NCBI GenBank assembly: GCA_000155695.1 | Contig: DS990592.1 | Coordinates: 4,660,060-4,724,059, forward strand | Direction of reading: 5' to 3' | Source of the DNA: Verrucomicrobiia bacterium DG1235 | Lineage (GTDB): Bacteria; Verrucomicrobiota; Verrucomicrobiia; Opitutales; Opitutaceae | Length of the DNA stretch: 64,000 nucleotides | Shown here: positions 2,447 to 39,800 of the stretch, in pieces | Layout: every line of letters begins with the position of its first letter | Position numbering within the stretch: position 1 is the stretch's first letter | Notes under the pieces: generated by a model | What the model was told of the DNA's origin: nothing | Databases searched by the model: none | Seen by the model: only the letters and a program-made list of their open reading frames with translations | Position numbers and translations under genes: made by a program

Positions 2447-5400
2447 ATGACTCAATCGGATTCTCCAGACTTCGAGTTCGACATATCGGACTTGGAAGTA
2501 GAAGGCGATGAAGCCTCCGCTTCCAAGCAGGGAGAAACCATGTCTTCAGAGAAGGGCTCCGATCCTGTGGGTAAACCGCTACAAGTGCCAGAGGAGGAGG
2601 CACTTAAGGATAATTTTGTGGACGAAGAAAACGTTGACGATGAGGCCTTGAGTGGATTCGCAATCGATGATTTGCCGGCTGCTGCTGAAACTGACGTGAG
2701 CGCTTCCCAGTCGAGTGATTCTGAAACTGTTGAAAGTGGAAGTGCGGCTGACGGAGAGATGGAAGAGAGTTCCTCTGCTCCAGTGGAGCCCGTCAGCAGG
2801 ATTGAGAAGAAGAAGGAGCCGAAGCCCAGTCGAGCCCTCGGGGATGACGATTTGGGCGCGGATGTTTTTGCCGAAATCGATTCGGATGGGGAATCAATCA
2901 GTTTCGAGGACGTGATCGATGACTTGATGGACGAGGTTGAAGATTTTGAAGCCGGGGGCTTTGTGGAGCTCGATGAAGAAGATTCTGAGGCGGGTTCTGA
3001 GTCTGATGAGAGCGGGATTTTCAAAATGGATGATCCTGATGATTCCTTGAGCAAGTCTGTCGATTCGAACGCGGTGGAGGATGTGGAGGAAGAGCCGCGA
3101 GAGTCAGCTCCTGCCTTTCCGAGTCCGCCCGCGGATTTCGAGATTCCGGCAGATCCAGAACCAGCGGCAGATCCGGAATCGGATTCAGTGGAAGAATTGC
3201 CGATCGAGGATGCGGTCGCTCCGGATGAAGTGGAAATTGAGTCGGAGCGGGAAGAGAGCGAGGTGGTTGCGGATTCGAAGCAAGATCCGGTTGTCGACGA
3301 TGCGACCGGCGTCGCTCCTGATTTTTCGGATTTTGAGATCCCTGCGGATCCAGAGGTTCAAGTAGAACCTCAGGAAGCGTCGATTGAGGAAGAGTCTGAT
3401 GAGCCTATTGCTGAAACTGAGGGTGTTCCTGAGGATTTGCCGGAAGAGGAATCCGAGCCAGTGGAGGGACACGAAAAAGTGCTTTTCTCCGCCGAAGATG
3501 AGCCAGTGGCTTCGGAGAATGAAGCAGAGGAATCTGATGCTGTAATTGACGAGGAATCCGTGTCGGACGAAGTGGAAGACGAGGAGGACATTTCCGAGCT
3601 GGTGGCGGCTGTCGCTGATTCGGAAGATGAAATTATCTCGGACGATATCTCTTCAGAGATGGAGCCAGATGCATCTGTGGAAGAAATAAGTGAGGAAGCT
3701 TCAGCGTCCGATGGTGAAATGGCCGAGGCTACAGCGAGTGAGAATGAGCCTGTCCAGGAGGTTGAAAATGAAGTGATTTCTGATTCGGAGGAGGCGAATC
3801 CTGGATTGAGCGATGCCGATGAGGAGGAAGAGAATATTTCCGAGCTGGTAGCGGCTGCGAGTTCTGCTGAAGACGATGCCGTAGAGCAAGAGGATGGTAA
3901 GGCCACTATAGAGGATGAAGCTGAAACGTCCGATGTTGCGGACGAGGACGAATTGAATTCGGAACCTGAAGAAGAGGCGGCTGTTGCGGATCTTGATGAG
4001 GAGGCGATTTCTGGCCTAAGCGAAGTCGAAGAGGAGGAAGAGGATATTTCCGAGCTGGTGGCGGCTGCGGTAGAAGACGATTCAGAAGAGATTTCGGAAG
4101 ATGCTGCTGAGGCGATCGAAGATCAGTCGACTGAAGCGATCGAGGATGATGACGAAGAGGAGATTGTCGATTTGCCTTCGGCGGATGACCTGAAGCCGGA
4201 TGATGGTGAAGCTTCTAGCGCGGAAGAGTCGGCTATTCCCGGATTGACGGAGGTCCCTGAAGATTTGGATGAGGAAGATATTTCGGCTCTGCTTTCATCG
4301 ATGGGAGACGAGTCTGCGTCGGAGGAAAGCGAGTCAATCCTCGGTGACGCTCCCGAATTAGCGGTTATCGACGATGATGACGATGAAATCGAAGCCTCAA
4401 TCTCTGAAGACGATACTACGGAATCGACTGAAACTCTTGAAGATGAGGTAGAGTCGGCTGACTCCTCTATGCCAAGCGCTGAGGAGCTTTTGATGAAGGC
4501 GGGAGGTCTTCTCAACGCGGATGCGGAAAAGCCAGTTGATGGAGCGAGCGCTTTGCTCGACGTGCTTGATGACGATGATGAAGAGGAAATTGTCGCCATG
4601 CCGTCTCCGGAGTCCTTGATCTCTGATGCCGAAGAGGATGACGATGAGGACGTTGTGGCGATGCCTGATCCGGCGACCATGATGGCTGAGGCGTCAGAGG
4701 GAGGTGAAGCTGTCGAGGAGAGCGATTCGACTTCCGGAAACATTGCTGATCATCCAGGTGATTTGCCTCCTCCTCCGCCCGCTCCGGTGGAGATAATTGA
4801 CGATGATCCGCCGGAAGAGGACTCTCAGCCTGAGGAGCCGGTTGCGGAAGTTGCGGCTGTTCCTGAAGAGTCGCCTGACGAAGGTGAGATTCAGGATCCG
4901 TTTGCGGGAGATCTTTCTCTCGACGATTTCGATGAAAACATCGGCGAGCTAACAGATAGCGATGCGGCGGAGCTTCCGGGATCGGAAGAGTCTGAGCAAG
5001 AAGAAGCCGCTGAAAACGGAGAGGAGCAAGTTGCGGCAGCAGAGGCCAAGCCCGCAGCTGTAGCTGAAATGCCAAAGCCCAGTTTGATTTGGCGAGTGAC
5101 GCATTCGATGGCTGTCGCTGCTGGACTCGTGCTGATTGGAACGGCCAGCATTCTTGCAATTTGGAAGCAGCAGATTGTCGAGTACTACGAAGGGCGAGAT
5201 ATCGATGGTTCGGCGCTGATTCATGAAATCGAATCGATAGGCACGCATGCGTTGAGCGAGTTTGACGAGCAAGGGCTTTACCGGATGCAATGGGTGGATA
5301 GCGAGGTTCGTCGCGTATCAGAAAATGAAATACGGCTTCATGCTCTTGTCGGAGCTCAGCTTCGCGAAAACCTTTACACTCCAGTTTTGGAATCAGAGCT

Positions 5401-6220
5401 GAAGGAGAGAATGGATTACGATGAACAAGGTCTTGTCGATTCTTTGAGCTACGCTCATCGTCATTTTCCGGAAGAGATAGGCCATTATCCAGATAAGCCC
5501 TGGGATAGCTTGTATCAAATCTCTGCGGCGAAGGACGAGATCCTCTCGCTTCGAGTGACCTATGGTTTGACCCGTGAGTCGAAGGAATCTGATTGGGAGC
5601 TTTCTCGTATTAAGGTAAGTGGATACAAGGAGGAGCTCAAGTGGCCTGAGGGCGAACCGAAATACGCTTTTGGAGAGAACGCCTACGATATTGATTCCTT
5701 GGAATTCGCGAATGTGTTTTCTGAATACAAGTCAGATGCGACTGCGTATGTAGCTAAGATAGACAGACTGCGTTCAGATATCGAGGCTGGGCAAATGGCT
5801 CTGAAAATCGAGAACGATAAGCAGCGCGAGCGGGTGAAGATGGCTCTCGCGGAAGGTGCCTACTTTAGTGGAGTCGCTATCTTGGGCGAGGACGCGGTTG
5901 CGTCGCGGGACGTTCAGCTCGTTATCACGGAGGTGCGTGACGAGGGAGCTTTTGTAAAGGGAGTTGTCCGTATGGACGAGGAGTCCAGCGAGCGTTCGAA
6001 GCACTTTGTTGGAAGTCTTGATTTTGAGACGACATTGAGCGGAAAAGAGCAGGGTGTTCTTAGTTTGCGAACCGTATCGATGGATTCGGCGGAAGCGATG
6101 GCGTCTGATTCGCCGTTTTTCGAGCCGGGAAGCGTATCGCGGATGAGATTGCGGGCGGATGGATTTCGTTTGGAAGGCGATTCGCGTGATCTTTCGTTTC
6201 GCCTGACGAGAAGCTTGTAG
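2447..6220 (+). CDS. Giant acidic single-span membrane protein with repeated EExISELVAAA motifs
   Basis: A 1257-residue protein of unknown function. About 870 N-terminal residues are extremely rich in Glu, Asp, Ser and Ala and almost certainly disordered. Within them short motifs recur: EEDISELVAAV, EENISELVAAA, EEDISELVAAA and the variant EEDISALLSSM; DDDDEEEIVAMPSPESL with relatives DDEEEIVDLPSADDL and DDEDVVAMPDPATM; and two copies of DFEIPADPE. A Pro-rich stretch and one transmembrane helix (about 885-908, HSMAVAAGLVLIGTASILAIW) follow. The C-terminal 350 residues look folded, mixed alpha/beta, with a basic-acidic helix near 1115-1130, and presumably lie on the periplasmic side. No catalytic motif was recognised. 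The acidic N-terminus would then be cytoplasmic and could dock partners through the repeated motifs; this is inference. Followed after 82 bp by an unknown gene on the same strand. Confidence 0.85.
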   Translation: MTQSDSPDFEFDISDLEVEGDEASASKQGETMSSEKGSDPVGKPLQVPEEEALKDNFVDEENVDDEALSGFAIDDLPAAAETDVSASQSSDSETVESGSAADGEMEESSSAPVEPVSRIEKKKEPKPSRALGDDDLGADVFAEIDSDGESISFEDVIDDLMDEVEDFEAGGFVELDEEDSEAGSESDESGIFKMDDPDDSLSKSVDSNAVEDVEEEPRESAPAFPSPPADFEIPADPEPAADPESDSVEELPIEDAVAPDEVEIESEREESEVVADSKQDPVVDDATGVAPDFSDFEIPADPEVQVEPQEASIEEESDEPIAETEGVPEDLPEEESEPVEGHEKVLFSAEDEPVASENEAEESDAVIDEESVSDEVEDEEDISELVAAVADSEDEIISDDISSEMEPDASVEEISEEASASDGEMAEATASENEPVQEVENEVISDSEEANPGLSDADEEEENISELVAAASSAEDDAVEQEDGKATIEDEAETSDVADEDELNSEPEEEAAVADLDEEAISGLSEVEEEEEDISELVAAAVEDDSEEISEDAAEAIEDQSTEAIEDDDEEEIVDLPSADDLKPDDGEASSAEESAIPGLTEVPEDLDEEDISALLSSMGDESASEESESILGDAPELAVIDDDDDEIEASISEDDTTESTETLEDEVESADSSMPSAEELLMKAGGLLNADAEKPVDGASALLDVLDDDDEEEIVAMPSPESLISDAEEDDDEDVVAMPDPATMMAEASEGGEAVEESDSTSGNIADHPGDLPPPPPAPVEIIDDDPPEEDSQPEEPVAEVAAVPEESPDEGEIQDPFAGDLSLDDFDENIGELTDSDAAELPGSEESEQEEAAENGEEQVAAAEAKPAAVAEMPKPSLIWRVTHSMAVAAGLVLIGTASILAIWKQQIVEYYEGRDIDGSALIHEIESIGTHALSEFDEQGLYRMQWVDSEVRRVSENEIRLHALVGAQLRENLYTPVLESELKERMDYDEQGLVDSLSYAHRHFPEEIGHYPDKPWDSLYQISAAKDEILSLRVTYGLTRESKESDWELSRIKVSGYKEELKWPEGEPKYAFGENAYDIDSLEFANVFSEYKSDATAYVAKIDRLRSDIEAGQMALKIENDKQRERVKMALAEGAYFSGVAILGEDAVASRDVQLVITEVRDEGAFVKGVVRMDEESSERSKHFVGSLDFETTLSGKEQGVLSLRTVSMDSAEAMASDSPFFEPGSVSRMRLRADGFRLEGDSRDLSFRLTRSL

Positions 6221-7664: not shown

Positions 7665-9152
7665 ATGGGAATACCTTCCGGTTCTTCCAAATTGAAGCAT
7701 AGCAAGACTGCCGCTAGTCGAGTAAAGACGTATGTTTTGGATACAAACGTCCTGATCCACGACCCGCATTGCATCTTCAAATTTGACGATAACAATCTAG
7801 TCATCCCCATCGAAGTATTGGAGGAGCTGGATTCGATTAAGATGGAGCAGAGCTCTGAGCGTGGCAGAAACGCTAGGCGGGTCCATCGGATGTTGAGGGA
7901 GCTGCTGCCTGACTCGCGATCGATGGCGGAAGGCGTCCTTATGGATACGGGCGGGACTTTGTCAGTTGTAATTAATAAGTACATACATGACACGAGTGAA
8001 AATATCCCCGAACATATTAGACAATTTCATGCACTGCTTGATTTCGAGAAAAAGGATAACCGTATCATCGCGGCGGCGTTGTTTGTGCAGGAGAACTTGC
8101 CGCCTCCGACGATACTGGTCTCCAAAGATATCAATGTTCAGCTGAAGGCTCGGGCTGTGGGGCTTGAGGCGGAGGACTATTTGAATGACAAGGCTCCGGA
8201 GGAGCCGGAGTTTAAGTCCTATCGAAAGATTGAGGTATCGAAATATGAACTACAGCGATTCGCATCCGAGGGGGAATTTGAATTGTCCGATTTTGACGAG
8301 AACAAGCTTTTTGTGAACGACTATGTTCTGCTTGTCTCTGAGGAGGGGAAGACGATTCCGGCGCGTCACTATGGAGATGGGGTGTTGCGTAAGCTTATTA
8401 TTCCCGAGTATGTGAAGGCTCCAGGCGGAGTGCCGATTCGTCCGCGGAATTTGGAGCAGCGTTTTTTCATGGACGCGTTGTTGGATGATACGATTTCGCT
8501 TATCACGTGTTATGGAAAAGCGGGTACGGGCAAGACTTTGCTCTCCACGGTATGCGCGATTCATCAGACGGTTTCGTCATCAGATTGCAAATACGACGGT
8601 GTTTCCATCTCTCGTCCGGTGATTGGCGTGGGCAAGGAAATCGGGTTTTTGCCAGGAACGCTTGAGGAGAAGATGAATCCTTGGCTGCAGCCTTACTACG
8701 ATGCGCTTGAGGTTTTGATCCCGACCAAGGAACCCAAGGATCCTCAATTCGAGAACAAGCGCCAGCGTCGTAAGGCGAAGGACAAGGAGGACACGGCACC
8801 GGGGAAGGGGCCGCAAAAGCCTTACGAGAAGCTGCTCGAAAGCGGAATCGTGGAAATCGAGGCGCTCTGTTTTATTCGAGGGCGCTCGATTTCGCATCGT
8901 TTTTTTATTCTAGACGAGGCTCAGCAGCTGACGCCGCATGAGGTGAAGACGGTGATCACTCGAATTTCTGAGGGATCGAAGATTGTGCTGATTGGGGATC
9001 CGGCCCAGATCGACAACCCTTATGTGGACTCACGAAGCAATGGGCTGGTCTACTGCTCGAATCGCATGAAGGGGCAGGCGATCGCAGCACATGTGCAGCT
9101 GACGAAGGGAGAGCGGTCTTTGCTCGCCGAGCTCGCGGCAGACTTGCTCTGA
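7665..9152 (+). CDS. phoH: PhoH family ATPase with N-terminal PIN domain (PhoH2/YlaK-like)
   Basis: 495 residues, a PIN-PhoH fusion. The PIN domain (about 20-155) shows YVLDTNVLIHDP with the first metal-binding Asp at 26, EVLEELD near 58 and KKDNRIIAAAL near 128, as in PilT N-terminus ribonucleases. The PhoH ATPase (about 250-495) has Walker A CYGKAGTGKTL near 284, Walker B FFILDEAQQL near 414 and IGDPAQIDNPY near 444. By family, such proteins couple ATP use to RNA unwinding and cleavage in the cytoplasm. A Lys/Arg-rich insertion (about 350-385, RQRRKAKDKEDTAPGKG) interrupts the ATPase domain and may bind nucleic acid (inference). Single gene, ended by a strong hairpin shared with the convergent def gene. 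No ribosome binding site is evident. Confidence 0.92.
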   Translation: MGIPSGSSKLKHSKTAASRVKTYVLDTNVLIHDPHCIFKFDDNNLVIPIEVLEELDSIKMEQSSERGRNARRVHRMLRELLPDSRSMAEGVLMDTGGTLSVVINKYIHDTSENIPEHIRQFHALLDFEKKDNRIIAAALFVQENLPPPTILVSKDINVQLKARAVGLEAEDYLNDKAPEEPEFKSYRKIEVSKYELQRFASEGEFELSDFDENKLFVNDYVLLVSEEGKTIPARHYGDGVLRKLIIPEYVKAPGGVPIRPRNLEQRFFMDALLDDTISLITCYGKAGTGKTLLSTVCAIHQTVSSSDCKYDGVSISRPVIGVGKEIGFLPGTLEEKMNPWLQPYYDALEVLIPTKEPKDPQFENKRQRRKAKDKEDTAPGKGPQKPYEKLLESGIVEIEALCFIRGRSISHRFFILDEAQQLTPHEVKTVITRISEGSKIVLIGDPAQIDNPYVDSRSNGLVYCSNRMKGQAIAAHVQLTKGERSLLAELAADLL

Positions 9153-9790: not shown

Positions 9791-9864
9791 TGGTCTTCGT
9801 TTTTGACCTAACCAACACTTAGGCCAAATCTAATTCAATTTCTTTCTTCTCTCCCTGATTGTCC

Positions 9865-11559
9865 ATGTCTGACCCCGTAAAGCCGTTTCGCTCTCACGCC
9901 CTTGTCGGGAGCTTGATGCTGCTTCTTGGCTTCGCGTTGATCGCTTTCGGCTGGGTGATACCTTCTCGATTCAAGTCGGTGCCCTTTGGAGTGGTGCGGG
10001 AAGCGGGGCAAGCGGGTGCAAGGGTTTCCGATCAGGCGCGTTTTTACCTGCTCGACGGAAATTATGGAGCGGCTGAACTGATGGCGAAGGGCGCGAGCCG
10101 ACTTGGCGAGAAGGAGAGCGCTCTGGTTAGCGCCCAAGTCGCGATGGAGATCGAGTCCAATGAGCAACTTGCTCTTTGGGGAGCATGGGATCCGTTTCTT
10201 GAAGCGGCGCTCAAAAACGTTCCTCTAGATGATTATTCCACCGAACCGGGCTTTTTGGGCGTTTTGCTCGCCAAGCCCTGCCGCACTGCGGTTTCGCGGC
10301 TTTTGGAAAACTCCCGCAATCCACTTGTGCAGGATTTGCTGGCAACGGGCGAATTCACGACGTACCGCCGACTTTTTCCTGTATCCAGCACTTCAGGACG
10401 ACCGCTCGAAGTGAGTTTGCTCGGTTTAGGTCTAGCAGCTCAAGGGGATCATTTGACTGATGGGCTTCGGCTGGAGTTGCGCGGCTTGATCCTCGAAGCG
10501 AAAGCTTCTGGCAGCATAGGAGCTTTGGAGGACTTCTACCTCGATGCTCTTTCTTTGATGAGGATGTTTAGTTGGGGGCAGCTCAAGGAGTTGCTTTCGC
10601 GCGCGGAATCGACTGAGGACCTGAAGCGCCTTCGTTTTCTTTTTCACCGTAAGCCGGAGCGGCAAGCTCTTGTCTATGCTATGAGCTTGGCGAGTCGCGA
10701 CCTAGCCGATTTGTTCGACTATCTGGCGACTTTTGGAGATGAAGGCTTCGACCGGCTCGAGTCCTCGCTGGCGACTGGGGTCGATGGTTACCTGCTTGCT
10801 TTGCGGGAACAGCTTCCGATCGAAATTGAAGTGATCGAGGATGTGGGTTCGTTTGTCTCAAACGTTCAAACCGCCTTGTCACCCTTCAGTTTGCGTAACC
10901 CTCAATTGTCCTTGGGAATCAAATACAGTTCGTTTTTTGTCGGTTCCTTCGTCGCGCTTTATGGCCTAAGCTTATTCGGTCGATTTTACCGAGAGACGGT
11001 GTCGCCCATGTTGGCCTTCACGCAACGCTTCTTTGGCGCGGCCGCCTCGGTGCTCGTTTTCGCTGTATTGAGCGAACCCTTTCTATCGGGAGCCGGCACC
11101 TTTGACGGCTATAATTTTACCTTTGTTCTGCCTGTTCTTGCTCAGGTCGACGGTGAACTACAGATTATTGAAACCACGCCCACTACGTCTATGGAACCAG
11201 CAACCTTATTATCCATCGCCTTTTTCTTTCTGCTTCAGGCATTGGTCTTCCTCATTTGCATGCTTAAGGTGCGCGAGATCGAGCGGCGGGACTTCGATCC
11301 GCTTGTGAAACTCAAGCTCATGGAGAATGAGGAGAACCTATTCGACGCCGGTCTATACGTTGGAATCGCCGGCACGTGTATTGCGCTCGTGATGCAGGTC
11401 ATCAATTTGGTGGAAGCCAACCTGCTCGCCGCTTATTCCTCGAATCTTTTCGGCATCCTCTGTGTGGCGATTGTGAAAATTCGCCTCGTTCGCCCTTATA
11501 AGACGAAGCTTATCATGGCGAGCGAGCAGCAGATCGTCGATCTGTCCAAGAAGTCTTAG
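9865..11559 (+). CDS. Membrane protein with MotA/TolQ/ExbB-like C-terminal channel region
   Basis: 564 residues from the ATG at 9865; a TTG two codons upstream is an alternative start. One N-terminal membrane helix (about 14-34, ALVGSLMLLLGFALIAFGWV), a long mostly helical region to about 345, then four to five membrane helices: SSFFVGSFVALYGLSLFG, FFGAAASVLVFAVLSEPF, LLSIAFFFLLQALVFLICML and the last pair GLYVGIAGTCIALVMQVI and YSSNLFGILCVAIVKI. The last pair has the spacing and small-residue pattern of MotA/TolQ/ExbB channel helices (GLxxGIxGT...A...S..L.GI). The following gene, 22 bp downstream, has a MotB/ExbD-like start, so the pair may form an ion-driven motor or transporter. This is inference from pattern; no overall family was recognised. 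Confidence 0.7.
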   Translation: MSDPVKPFRSHALVGSLMLLLGFALIAFGWVIPSRFKSVPFGVVREAGQAGARVSDQARFYLLDGNYGAAELMAKGASRLGEKESALVSAQVAMEIESNEQLALWGAWDPFLEAALKNVPLDDYSTEPGFLGVLLAKPCRTAVSRLLENSRNPLVQDLLATGEFTTYRRLFPVSSTSGRPLEVSLLGLGLAAQGDHLTDGLRLELRGLILEAKASGSIGALEDFYLDALSLMRMFSWGQLKELLSRAESTEDLKRLRFLFHRKPERQALVYAMSLASRDLADLFDYLATFGDEGFDRLESSLATGVDGYLLALREQLPIEIEVIEDVGSFVSNVQTALSPFSLRNPQLSLGIKYSSFFVGSFVALYGLSLFGRFYRETVSPMLAFTQRFFGAAASVLVFAVLSEPFLSGAGTFDGYNFTFVLPVLAQVDGELQIIETTPTTSMEPATLLSIAFFFLLQALVFLICMLKVREIERRDFDPLVKLKLMENEENLFDAGLYVGIAGTCIALVMQVINLVEANLLAAYSSNLFGILCVAIVKIRLVRPYKTKLIMASEQQIVDLSKKS

Positions 11560-11581
11560 GCTCGTCCGCACTCCGATAGAG

Positions 11582-13063
11582 ATGAACAAGACCCTACTAC
11601 TTATACTCTGCGATTTTTTGCTGCTTACCATTCTCTCCATGTGGAAAATGGAAGAGGACGCTCCCGCATCTTCGGCAGGCGCGGTAGAAGAGGATCAGGA
11701 TGTAAGCGTTTCGGCCATGGCGATGATGGAGCAGGATTTGCTCGACACGCTTACCTACTCGCTCGAGGAGGAGCAGACGGAGCGAAGCGAGCTAGCTGAA
11801 GATTTGGCCGCAAAGGCTGCGGAGCTCGCTCGTCGCGAGGAAGAGTTGGCCCAACGTCAGAATCGTATCCAGAATCTCGAGCAAAACTTGACGGAAGCGG
11901 AGAAACGCGAGCGAGAGCTCGCTGCTGCGCGAGCCGCCTTGGAGGAGGATACTAAAAATCTAGAGGCGCAGATTGCCACGACGCAGACAGAGTATCGGTC
12001 CGTTACTCAGAAGTTGGCTGAGACAGAGCAGGAAGCTCTGCAAAACCAAGCGCAGTCGCGACTCCTGCAAGAAGAGCTTGAGCAAAAGCTCGCGGAGATC
12101 GCAGCCAAGGAAAGTGCTCTCGCGAAGAAAAATCAGGAGCTTGCTGCGACTCAGCAAAAGGTTCAGGAGCTAGACGTGCAGGTGAAGATGCGCGAGCAGG
12201 AGAACACTTTTCTTCAGGAGTCGGTTTCCACTTTGAAGGGTGAAGTCGTAGCGGAGCGGGAGGAGCGTCAGCGCCTGCAGGAGCAGTCGACCGTACTCGC
12301 TCAGGGAGTGAGCGAGCTGGCAGCGAGCTCGCAGGATCTGCGTCAGGAGCTTCGTTCAAGTTTTGAGATAAACGCAAATCAGCTCTTCAGCGATTTTAAG
12401 AACAATCAGATTCAAGCTGATTTTTCGGCTGTGAAACTAACGCGTAATCGTTACGTGAAAACAGAGGATTCGACCTCTACGATACTTGTCAGCGACGGGA
12501 CGAGCTTTTACGCCTTGGCGCATATCGATAGTCTCCCCTTCGGTTTGAAGACGAATCCTTCAACCGTTCGCTCCGTCACGCTTTCGCTTAATCGAGCGGG
12601 GGCTCAGAAGAAGGCGAGTCAGGTGCAGTTTCTCGCTTTGGATCCACGCATTGTTTCGATCTCACTGACGGAAGCTGAAGCGAAACGTCTCGGAGGGAAG
12701 CCTTACTTAACCGCCATCGAACCATTTAAGTTCGCCGAAGCTGTGCTGGTTAACCGGCAAGGCGACTATTATGGCGAGGTCGAGTTCAAGCTGGATGCGA
12801 GCACTCCTGGGTTCGTGAAGATGCAGACTAAGATCTTTAGCGCGATTTTTGGAGAATTTTCGCCTTCGACCGGCGATCTCGTTTTATCGAAAACAGGCGA
12901 GCTACTGGGCGTGATGGTGAATCGTCGCTACTGCGCTTTGGTGAATAACTTTGTTCCGATCTCCACTCTGGATCTTACGCAGCAGTTGAACACTGGCGAG
13001 CTGAAGGAAACTCTGGAGGTTCTTAACGGGTCTTTGAATGGATTTCCAGGGCCGCTGCAGTAA
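11582..13063 (+). CDS. MotB/TolR-like anchored coiled-coil protein with degenerate trypsin-like tail
   Basis: 493 residues. The N-terminus MNKTLLLILCDFLLLTILSM is one membrane helix with an Asp at position 11, as in MotB, TolR and ExbD where the Asp carries the ion. After an acidic stretch, residues about 60-255 form a long coiled coil (repeated Glu/Gln/Ala/Leu heptads). The C-terminal 230 residues resemble a chymotrypsin-fold domain: SFYALAHIDSL recalls the catalytic His strand and TGDLVLSKTGELLGVMVN the strand around the active Ser, but the Ser is absent, so it is probably a binding domain. It follows the MotA/TolQ-like gene by 22 bp and is surely in the same operon. Its last 41 bases overlap the end of the convergent methyltransferase gene. 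Confidence 0.7.
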   Translation: MNKTLLLILCDFLLLTILSMWKMEEDAPASSAGAVEEDQDVSVSAMAMMEQDLLDTLTYSLEEEQTERSELAEDLAAKAAELARREEELAQRQNRIQNLEQNLTEAEKRERELAAARAALEEDTKNLEAQIATTQTEYRSVTQKLAETEQEALQNQAQSRLLQEELEQKLAEIAAKESALAKKNQELAATQQKVQELDVQVKMREQENTFLQESVSTLKGEVVAEREERQRLQEQSTVLAQGVSELAASSQDLRQELRSSFEINANQLFSDFKNNQIQADFSAVKLTRNRYVKTEDSTSTILVSDGTSFYALAHIDSLPFGLKTNPSTVRSVTLSLNRAGAQKKASQVQFLALDPRIVSISLTEAEAKRLGGKPYLTAIEPFKFAEAVLVNRQGDYYGEVEFKLDASTPGFVKMQTKIFSAIFGEFSPSTGDLVLSKTGELLGVMVNRRYCALVNNFVPISTLDLTQQLNTGELKETLEVLNGSLNGFPGPLQ

Positions 13064-38147: not shown

Positions 38148-39008
38148 ATGTTTGTAATTATTGGATCACTAATCGTTTTGGGAGCGACCGTCGGGGCCTT
38201 TATCTGGTCCGGTGGCAGCTTGATATTGCTGTGGCACCCACCCGAGATTTTGGCGATTGGCGGCATCAGTCTTGGGGTAGCGGTGATTTGCGCCCCTAAG
38301 GATGTCTTGATCCACACGGTCCACGCGATTTTGGGAGCCTTGAAAGGCGCTGGTCCGAGCAAGGACGACTATCTCGATCTTATGAAGGTGATGTACGAGC
38401 TCTTCATGCTCGGCCGCCGCAATGGTCTGCTCGCCCTCGACGAGCACGTGAGTTCTCCCGAATCGAGCTCGATCTTTCAAAACTATCCCAGCTTTCTGGC
38501 GGACAAGGACAAGGTCACCTTTCTCTGCTCCGCTTTAAGACCGATCATTGACGGCAAGATCAAGCCCGACCAGCTCGAGCCCTTGCTCAAGGCTGAGATC
38601 GACGCCAAGAAGCATGCGGCTCACGGGCCGATCAACGTCTTGCACCTCTTGGGTGACTCGCTTCCTGGTATCGGAATCGTGGCGGCGGTTATGGGTATTA
38701 TCCTGACCATGAGCGTATTGGACCAGGGAGTTATGGTGATTGGCGGCAAGATTTCCGCGGCGCTCTCCGGTACCTTTCTCGGAATTTTCGTGGCCTACGG
38801 ATTCATCAATCCGCTGTGTAACGTGATCGAGTTCGGAAACGAGGCTGAGGAGACCTACTACATTTGCATGTCTCGCTCGATCGGAGCCTTTGCTCGCGGC
38901 CTCGCTCCTATCATGGCGGTTGAGCTCGCTCGTCGCAGTCTCGAGGCGAGCATGGTGCCGAGCGCGGATGATTTGGAAAACATCCTGAAGTCCTCCACCG
39001 GAGGCTGA
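38148..39008 (+). CDS. motA: MotA, stator channel protein
   Basis: 286 residues, four membrane helices. Opens with FVIIGSLIVLGATVGAFIW, has the cytoplasmic loop carrying the charges that touch FliG, and helices 3-4 GDSLPGIGIVAAVMGIILTMS and ISAALSGTFLGIFVAYGFINP with the conserved Pro and Ala/Gly pattern. Together with MotB it drives rotation by ion flow; proton or sodium use cannot be told from sequence alone. Nine bases before motB. Confidence 0.96.
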   Translation: MFVIIGSLIVLGATVGAFIWSGGSLILLWHPPEILAIGGISLGVAVICAPKDVLIHTVHAILGALKGAGPSKDDYLDLMKVMYELFMLGRRNGLLALDEHVSSPESSSIFQNYPSFLADKDKVTFLCSALRPIIDGKIKPDQLEPLLKAEIDAKKHAAHGPINVLHLLGDSLPGIGIVAAVMGIILTMSVLDQGVMVIGGKISAALSGTFLGIFVAYGFINPLCNVIEFGNEAEETYYICMSRSIGAFARGLAPIMAVELARRSLEASMVPSADDLENILKSSTGG

Positions 39009-39017
39009 TCCTAGGCG

Positions 39018-39800
39018 ATGAAGCAATTGGGGACACACCACGGCGGAGCTTGGAAGGTCGCGTACGCGGATTTCGTGACGGCGATGATGGCTCTCTTTAT
39101 GGTACTCTGGCTGACCTCTCAGGACGAGAGTCTCAAGCGGGACCTCGCCAAGTATTTTCAGGATCCCTACAATACGCCGATGGACAATTCCATGGGCGTT
39201 ATCGAAAGCCCGACGGAAGGCCAGCCTTCTAGCGCCAATGGGCAAGCCAAGGGCAAGGCCGAGATATCGGACTTCAAGGTGCTCTACGAAATGGCCCAGG
39301 AGTTCATGCGCCTGCTCAACATCGACAGCGCGAATCCCGATCAGAAGCCGGTCGATCTCGACGTGACGAGCGACGGGCTCCGCGTGACCTTGTACGATCG
39401 GGACGCTCATCCCTTTTTCGTTGAGAACAGCGCGGACTACACGCCTTGGGGCTCGTTCGTGATTGAGACGCTCGCCTGGCTCGTGCAACGACACAATTTT
39501 ATGGTTCGAGTGGATGGATACGTCTCGGAGGGCTTTGAAGGCGACGGCTGGGAGTACACCGCATGGGAGTTGTCCAGCGATCGCGCGAATTCGACCCGAA
39601 GGCTCCTGGAGCGCTACGGCGTGCGAAGGGGACAGTTTAAGTCCGTCACCTCGCACGGCAATATGGAGCCACTTCCTTTCATGCACCCGACGGCGGAGGC
39701 GAATGATCGCGTCTCGATAAGCCTTGTCTTGTCAGAGGTGTTTAACATTCTCGATGAACGCGCTTCGGAGGGGAATCCTCCAGTGGCGCCGACTCAGTAA
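39018..39800 (+). CDS. motB: MotB, stator anchor protein
   Basis: 260 residues. Membrane helix WKVAYADFVTAMMALFMVLWL with the ion-carrying Asp at 18, a plug/linker, and the OmpA-like peptidoglycan-binding domain (MVRVDGYVSEGFE, LSSDRANSTRRLLERYGV, SVTSHGN, NDRVSISLVL). Overlaps the next small gene by one base (TAATG). Confidence 0.95.
   Translation: MKQLGTHHGGAWKVAYADFVTAMMALFMVLWLTSQDESLKRDLAKYFQDPYNTPMDNSMGVIESPTEGQPSSANGQAKGKAEISDFKVLYEMAQEFMRLLNIDSANPDQKPVDLDVTSDGLRVTLYDRDAHPFFVENSADYTPWGSFVIETLAWLVQRHNFMVRVDGYVSEGFEGDGWEYTAWELSSDRANSTRRLLERYGVRRGQFKSVTSHGNMEPLPFMHPTAEANDRVSISLVLSEVFNILDERASEGNPPVAPTQ

Follow-up and report, generated by a model that had tools for sequence, protein, structure and literature searches.

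The 64,000-nucleotide stretch of Verrucomicrobiia bacterium DG1235 analyzed here (contig DS990592.1, positions 4,660,060 to 4,724,059, forward strand; referred to as the window) carries two adjacent plus-strand genes, A and B, that encode a polytopic membrane protein and a single-pass membrane protein, respectively. These two proteins, a candidate channel and its putative stalk, are the subject of this study. Both open reading frames (ORFs) are intact and separated by a gap of 22 bp, in agreement with a sequence-only reading of this DNA, whose coordinates, gap, and reading frames were all correct. The ORF finder also offered TTG at 9859 as a start of A, but ATG at 9865 is more likely. At the search sensitivity used, the 5.8-Mb source genome contains one copy each of A and B. 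The closest named relatives among the A matches are from Pelagicoccus, with A identities of 77% and 74%. The features of the pair are compiled in Table 1.

Table 1. Coordinates in the window of genes A and B and of the features assigned to their products (aa, amino acids; pLDDT, predicted local distance difference test).
Feature	Coordinates	Strand	Basis
Gene A: 564-aa membrane protein with alpha-solenoid domain and predicted channel core	9865..11559	+	ORF; AlphaFold2 pLDDT 86.7; 65-sequence alignment
A, first membrane helix, aa 8-31	9886..9957	+	AlphaFold2 model; hydrophobic sequence
A, alpha-solenoid-like domain, aa 41-344, with TPR-like start, aa 52-104	9985..10896	+	Helices in model
A, membrane helices 2 and 3, aa 346-371 and 381-403	10900..11073	+	AlphaFold2 model
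A, predicted channel core, aa 441-564, three helices	11185..11556	+	Most conserved part of family; aligns with stand-alone A proteins of ~180 aa
A, putative pore motif GIAGT, aa 500-504 (ExbB GLFGT)	11362..11376	+	G503 and T504 identical in all 65 sequences; ExbB alignment in register
A, putative pore motif AYSSNLFGI, aa 523-531	11431..11457	+	A523, Y524, F529, G530, and I531 invariant in 65 sequences
Gene B: 493-aa protein with one membrane pass, a coiled-coil stalk, and a pseudo-protease domain	11582..13063	+	ORF; AlphaFold2 pLDDT 82.1; alignments
B, N-terminal membrane helix, aa 3-24	11588..11653	+	AlphaFold2 model; phylum loci
B, Asp11, acidic residue in membrane helix	11612..11614	+	Invariant, 150/150 loci across phylum
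B, stalk of coiled coil, aa 49-258, with helices 49-205 and 221-258	11726..12355	+	AlphaFold2 model; hydrophobic period
B, domain of trypsin/HtrA fold lacking a conserved catalytic Ser	12365..13042	+	Foldseek, VIA

The pairing of the two genes is deeply conserved. B lies immediately 3' of A in 150 of the 152 loci that have the A core, most commonly with a 4-base overlap and with a median distance of 3. At one of the two exceptional loci (L062), a small unrelated gene (about 3150-3700) is inserted between A and B, and at the other (L071), a different gene follows A and the locus ends before B could be reached. The distances of A and of B correlate with r=0.96 (57 loci); A and B therefore travel together, and judged from these sequence distances, the pair is vertically co-inherited. 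Within Opitutales, the order of the strain, 74 of 132 genomes carry A, and phylum-wide 126 of 388 do, about one third of the latter sample. The carriers listed belong to this order or to other classes of the phylum, and none is listed for the same class outside the order. A search of genome contigs gave 41 loci with A relatives, all in Opitutia or in unclassified Verrucomicrobia records. The gene order, which the sequence-only reading had proposed to follow across Opitutia, is conserved there and also in other classes of the phylum. The plasmids searched contained no relative, and the viral contigs, which were searched with one pattern only, contained none either. Our literature searches retrieved no description of such a channel/stalk gene pair, which is apparently absent from both the literature and the family libraries searched.

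No third gene is conserved in Opitutales. In one family of another class (f41), a protein of ~770-890 aa that combines a Ser/Thr kinase with an FGE-sulfatase (SUMF1-like) domain is encoded directly behind B in nine of nine loci (L115-L119 and L130-L133), whereas it was found in none of the 11 loci of other families that were read with their flanks.

The conservation of A is concentrated at its C-terminus, as the invariant columns of the 65 aligned A proteins cluster in the last 80 residues (N488, E489, L492, F493, D494, G496, L497, Y498, G500, G503, T504, L520, A523, Y524, F529, G530, I531, A535, K538, and R543). The sequence-only reading had described this region as a closing pair of helices with a GIxGT...SxxFGI pattern; both halves of the pattern are present, as GIAGT and AYSSNLFGI, and the AlphaFold2 model closes with three helices (445-474, 495-512, and 520-563). 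Other classes include several families whose A has only ~180 aa and consists of an N-terminal helix, a short loop, and a region that matches the last ~120 residues of the A protein in the window. These stand-alone cores contain four hydrophobic segments, which would be membrane helices, and B is always found alongside. In the loci read, the B proteins beside short A cores have 485-629 aa and are complete, with an unchanged start, MNRSILIVICDFLV. In other classes, the coiled coil of B is usually longer, and the end motif GDxVxTxxGxFxGVMV is the same. As A shrinks to the ~180-aa core while B stays complete, the conserved unit is the core together with B, and by this sequence comparison, the minimal unit is the predicted channel core plus the B stalk, to which the solenoid of A is an addition. 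The solenoid corresponds to the long helical region that had been noted in A, and its helical, alpha-solenoid-like nature stands, with a charge pattern that assigns it to the periplasmic side of the membrane. It is not a general trait of A, however, as these ~300 residues occur in Opitutales and, beyond this order, in a few families (f45, f91, and f56), and are lacking in most families of other classes. The similarity of residues 52-104 to helical-repeat proteins is weak (Z 5-7 in structure comparisons with VIA).

The topology of the core can be estimated from the stand-alone proteins, in which Lys plus Arg versus Asp plus Glu number 2.9/0.1 ahead of helix 1, 3.3/4.0 from helix 1 to helix 2, 4.1/3.2 from helix 2 to helix 3, and 3.6/2.5 within the tail. 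This charge pattern would place the N- and C-termini and the loop between helices 2 and 3 in the cytoplasm. These parts are likewise inside in MotA.

In B, the membrane helix begins at residue 3-4 and contains Asp11 as its sole conserved acidic residue. Asp11 was found in 150 of 150 loci by a scan in which start codons giving an Asp at position 11 were preferred and other starts were accepted, none of which was found; Phe12 follows in 147 of the 150. The stalk behind this helix has a hydrophobic period of exactly 3.5 residues (p<0.0005), with 36% of its residues being charged, and the AlphaFold2 model divides it into helices of 157 and 38 residues (195 in total) with a low-confidence hinge between them. 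From the periodicity of the sequence, the stalk is a heptad coiled coil of the two-stranded type. If both predicted helices were fully extended, at 1.5 Å per residue, it would measure ~29 nm, enough to cross the periplasm. A search of PDB sequences with the B profile returned coiled coils only, and Pfam gave no match to an OmpA-like domain, as in MotB, or to the ExbD/TolR periplasmic domain.

The C-terminal ~220 residues of B (aa 262-487) are modeled as a beta domain that clearly resembles proteases of the HtrA/DegS type (Foldseek E 1.7e-6, prob 1.00). With VIA-align, 150-183 residues were superimposed with Z 10.8-12.4 and root-mean-square deviations of 3.4-4.8, and the 50 rows listed were all chymotrypsin-fold proteases or protease-like domains. 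Similarity to trypsin/HtrA proteases was not detected at the sequence level, where the PDB profile search gave nothing for this domain and Pfam gave no match. When the HtrA motif GNSGGPL was laid by hand on SPSTGDLV, the position of the catalytic Ser was occupied by Thr430 in B of the window, and by the same hand alignment, this position mostly holds Arg or Lys, or other residues, in the relatives, while His314, at the position of the catalytic His, is replaced in several families of Opitutales and in other classes. As neither position is conserved, the B family as a whole is not a classical serine protease. All that had been read from the letters of B, namely a single membrane helix with Asp11, a coiled coil of about 200 residues, and a chymotrypsin-like C-terminal domain without the active Ser, is thereby borne out.

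We next consider the relationship of A to MotA, TolQ, and ExbB. The pore pattern of A, GxxGT...AxxSTxxGI, is of the ExbB/TolQ/MotA type. In E. coli ExbB and TolQ, two conserved pore threonines form a polar ring near the essential Asp of ExbD and TolR (PMC12215075). The spacing of the two motifs of A fits both ExbB from the source genome (GLLGTV and ALITTxxGL) and MotA of the window (GIGIVAAVMG and ALSGTFLGI), which is encoded together with MotB by ordinary flagellar genes at 38148-39800 that served as an internal comparison. A combined pore pattern, which was chosen after the comparison and accepts Thr, Ser, or Asn at the second Thr position, was present in 97 of 102 A proteins, 43 of 44 ExbB proteins, and 1 of 1588 other ORFs. 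In hhalign, the A core was aligned with transmembrane (TM) helices TM2-TM3 of ExbB exactly at both motifs and in the correct register, with a score of 25.3, compared to a maximum of 20.3 in 60 block-shuffles and 15.6-18.4 with reversed profiles. With the ExbB profile, the best A cores outscored all other ORFs of their loci (8.9 vs 4.3), and the area under the curve (AUC) for A cores among multi-TM ORFs was 0.67, compared to 0.50 for the reversed profile, while the reciprocal ranking gave an AUC of 0.76; p-values of these rankings are optimistic, because related sequences were used.

Several results weigh against this relationship. A of the window has Asn527 in place of the second pore Thr, and the conserved Pro of A is located about two turns later than that of ExbB. 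PF01618 detected 19 genes above cut-off in the source genome, but A gave no match at E<=1, and the best member of 25 A cores reached E=0.021, without passing the family cut-off. The hhalign probability for the A core and ExbB was 4-6%, and with a smaller alignment, one of 40 shuffles (10-column) exceeded the real score (32.5 vs 23.8). The PDB sequence search with the A profile gave nothing, and the models of Pfam, NCBIfam, and PADLOC recognized neither A nor B beyond coiled-coil and noise matches. Foldseek gave no match for the whole A model, and no ExbB or MotA chain was listed by Foldseek or VIA; the missing chains prove nothing, because the helical N-terminal domain dominates these searches. 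On balance, the sequence evidence for remote homology of A to ExbB and MotA is suggestive, not significant, and common descent is likely but unproven; A is not filed as a PF01618 member. The kinship with MotA/TolQ/ExbB claimed by the sequence-only reading therefore stands for the pore motif and falls below significance for homology. That reading had named the joint lack of a MotA/ExbB match and of conserved pairing as refuting it; such a match is nearly missing, and the pairing is clearly present. Among the matches of A and B to Pfam, NCBIfam, and PADLOC models, those of the SMC/JetC/LmuB type were judged to be coiled-coil artefacts. The source genome also contains several operons (L073, L074, L076, and L077) in which an ExbD-type gene follows two ExbB-type genes; the product of one of the two measures ~460 aa and has an N-terminus with a long extension, and that of the other measures ~170-200 aa.

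By analogy with the known systems, A and B probably constitute an uncharacterized family of ion-driven inner-membrane channel/stalk complexes that work like MotAB, ExbBD, and TolQR and carry a pseudo-protease tip, an interpretation that we hold with moderate confidence. With ExbBD and TolQR, the pair shares the adjacent genes, a polytopic subunit with GxxGT and AxxxTxxGL pore helices, the helix order and inside/outside pattern of the A core, and an N-terminal helix with an invariant Asp in the second subunit. It differs from them by a cytoplasmic loop of ~25 aa in place of a larger domain, by the missing PF01618 match, and by the ~200-residue coiled coil and HtrA-like tip that B has instead of an ExbD/TolR domain. 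MotAB and PomAB agree with it in the four-helix core with both termini inside and in the Asp of an ADF-like motif (CDF in B), whereas A has no torque-generating cytoplasmic domain, B has no OmpA-like peptidoglycan-binding domain, and the pair is not tied to flagella. ZorAB is an ion-driven-type pair with a long helical extension as well. In Zorya, however, the long tail sits on the MotA-like subunit, while the extension of A-B is on the Asp-bearing subunit, and no ZorC/D-like neighbors were seen. GldLM and PorLM are two-gene units as well, in which the inner subunit likewise bears a long periplasmic shaft, but GldL spans the membrane with two helices and carries the key acid itself, as Glu49 (PMC8986121), whereas the A core has four TM helices, the invariant acid is in B, and the shaft of B is a coiled coil and not a series of four folded domains. 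The layout thus differs from MotAB, TolQR, ExbBD, and ZorAB, as the sequence-only reading had stated. The interpretation given in that reading is supported in part, with a position of Asp11 at the pore, a 5:2 assembly, and pulling driven by protons as its conjectural elements.

Of the alternatives, a sensor-type channel is the best rival because of the kinase operon. The stalk and tip would then sense stretch, the wall, or misfolded protein and gate an ion path in A, without generating force. The kinase-FGE gene of f41 suits such signaling, and pseudo-protease folds can bind peptides. We nevertheless consider a sensor unlikely, as the kinase is restricted to that family in the loci read with flanks and the design of pore and Asp is otherwise that of energized motors. 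A non-conducting envelope scaffold similar to MreC-MreD would likewise combine a TM helix, a coiled coil, and protease-like beta-barrels in one protein with a small polytopic partner encoded by an adjacent gene. MreC has a fold of protease-like beta-barrels. This general layout is indeed that of B and A, but we regard the scaffold as improbable: the genome encodes a separate MreC, profile similarity is absent (hhalign score 12.4 and probability 0.16% for the A core and MreD, compared to the score of 25.3 with ExbB, and probability 0.57% for the B domain and MreC), the MreC stalk is much shorter, and the N-termini of the MreC sequences compared have no Asp in the middle of the membrane helix, whereas all 150 B proteins do. 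The clear HtrA fold of the B tip, a double beta-barrel as in HtrA/DegS (S1C), could also suggest a membrane-anchored quality-control factor for which A is merely the anchor. This is quite improbable, as the Ser position holds no nucleophile in nearly all relatives, the His position is not conserved, sequence similarity to the S1C proteases is undetectable, and the strongest conservation lies outside the tip, in the core of A and the membrane helix of B.

Two further readings have very little in their favor. ZorAB has a long tail, which could be taken as a hint to an anti-phage defense system of the Zorya type. PADLOC, however, assigned A to 0 families and gave only coiled-coil noise for B (ZorA2, E=1.3). 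The neighbors in the window are PhoH-, def-, and methyltransferase-like ORFs, and the single-copy, apparently vertical inheritance of the pair and its absence from the viral contigs and plasmids searched also make a defense function highly improbable, even if the 5:2 composition of ZorAB (PMC11890865) would suit it. An accessory stator or regulator of the flagellum is the least credible reading of all. The flagellar genes begin only ~3 kb downstream of the pair, and an FlgB-like gene is found in the flank of seven relatives, but a regular MotAB is already encoded in the window, and the distribution contradicts a flagellar role: in a comparison of two genome listings, 36 of the 65 listed A-B carriers were without FliF, and flagella are therefore not required for A-B. 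As an aside on FliF, genomes of 0.8-1.3 Mb from the same order (e.g., G005, G006, G025, and G029) encode a short YscJ/FliF-type protein of 270-347 aa and gave no A match; by their length, these proteins resemble SctJ of type III secretion, and the bacteria with these small genomes are possibly symbionts.

In the surroundings of the pair, with names assigned from sequence, a PhoH-like gene (7665-9152) and the flagellar genes from ~16 kb are on the plus strand, and two minus-strand genes, one peptide-deformylase-like and one methyltransferase-like, bracket A and B. Although the distance to the flagellar genes is short, the view of a new two-gene unit outside the flagellar cluster holds. Further upstream (2447-6220), the window encodes a 1257-aa protein with one membrane helix, an extremely acidic and repetitive N-terminal two thirds, and a folded-looking C-terminal part; related ORFs are present as a cluster upstream of A in 11 Opitutales loci.

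Returning to the ion-driven channel/stalk complex, we propose the following mode of action. By analogy with 5:2 machines (PMC9389320), a dimer of B would be surrounded in the membrane by several A cores. Ions would pass Asp11 of B and the pore residues of A (GxxGT and AxxS-T), and cycles of protonation would turn the B helices, or pull them, with respect to A. The coiled coil would relay this movement to the pseudo-protease domain at the end of the stalk, which may bind, and not cut, a protein or wall partner close to the outer membrane. Where A carries the alpha-solenoid, in Opitutales and some further families, this domain could be an added adaptor or anchor. We give roughly even chances to the more specific and joint proposal that the pairs represent a separate family of ion-driven envelope machines in several Verrucomicrobiota classes, in which a MotA-like channel of ~180 aa drives a homodimeric coiled-coil rod with a pseudo-HtrA tip, and which would form a further branch beside MotAB, ExbBD/TolQR, AglRQS, GldLM, and ZorAB, coupled to a kinase in one lineage. 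As part of that proposal, the A core would be among the smallest MotA-like channels, with hardly any cytoplasmic part.

Few ion-driven membrane machines built from two subunits are known, and their roles are in flagella, gliding, nutrient uptake, type IX secretion, outer-membrane constriction, and phage defense. Asp11 of B provides a clean residue for tests of the pair. If the pair conducts ions, A as a stripped-down subunit would reveal the indispensable part of such channels, and the pair would point to an energized envelope process in Verrucomicrobiota that is undescribed in the literature searched.

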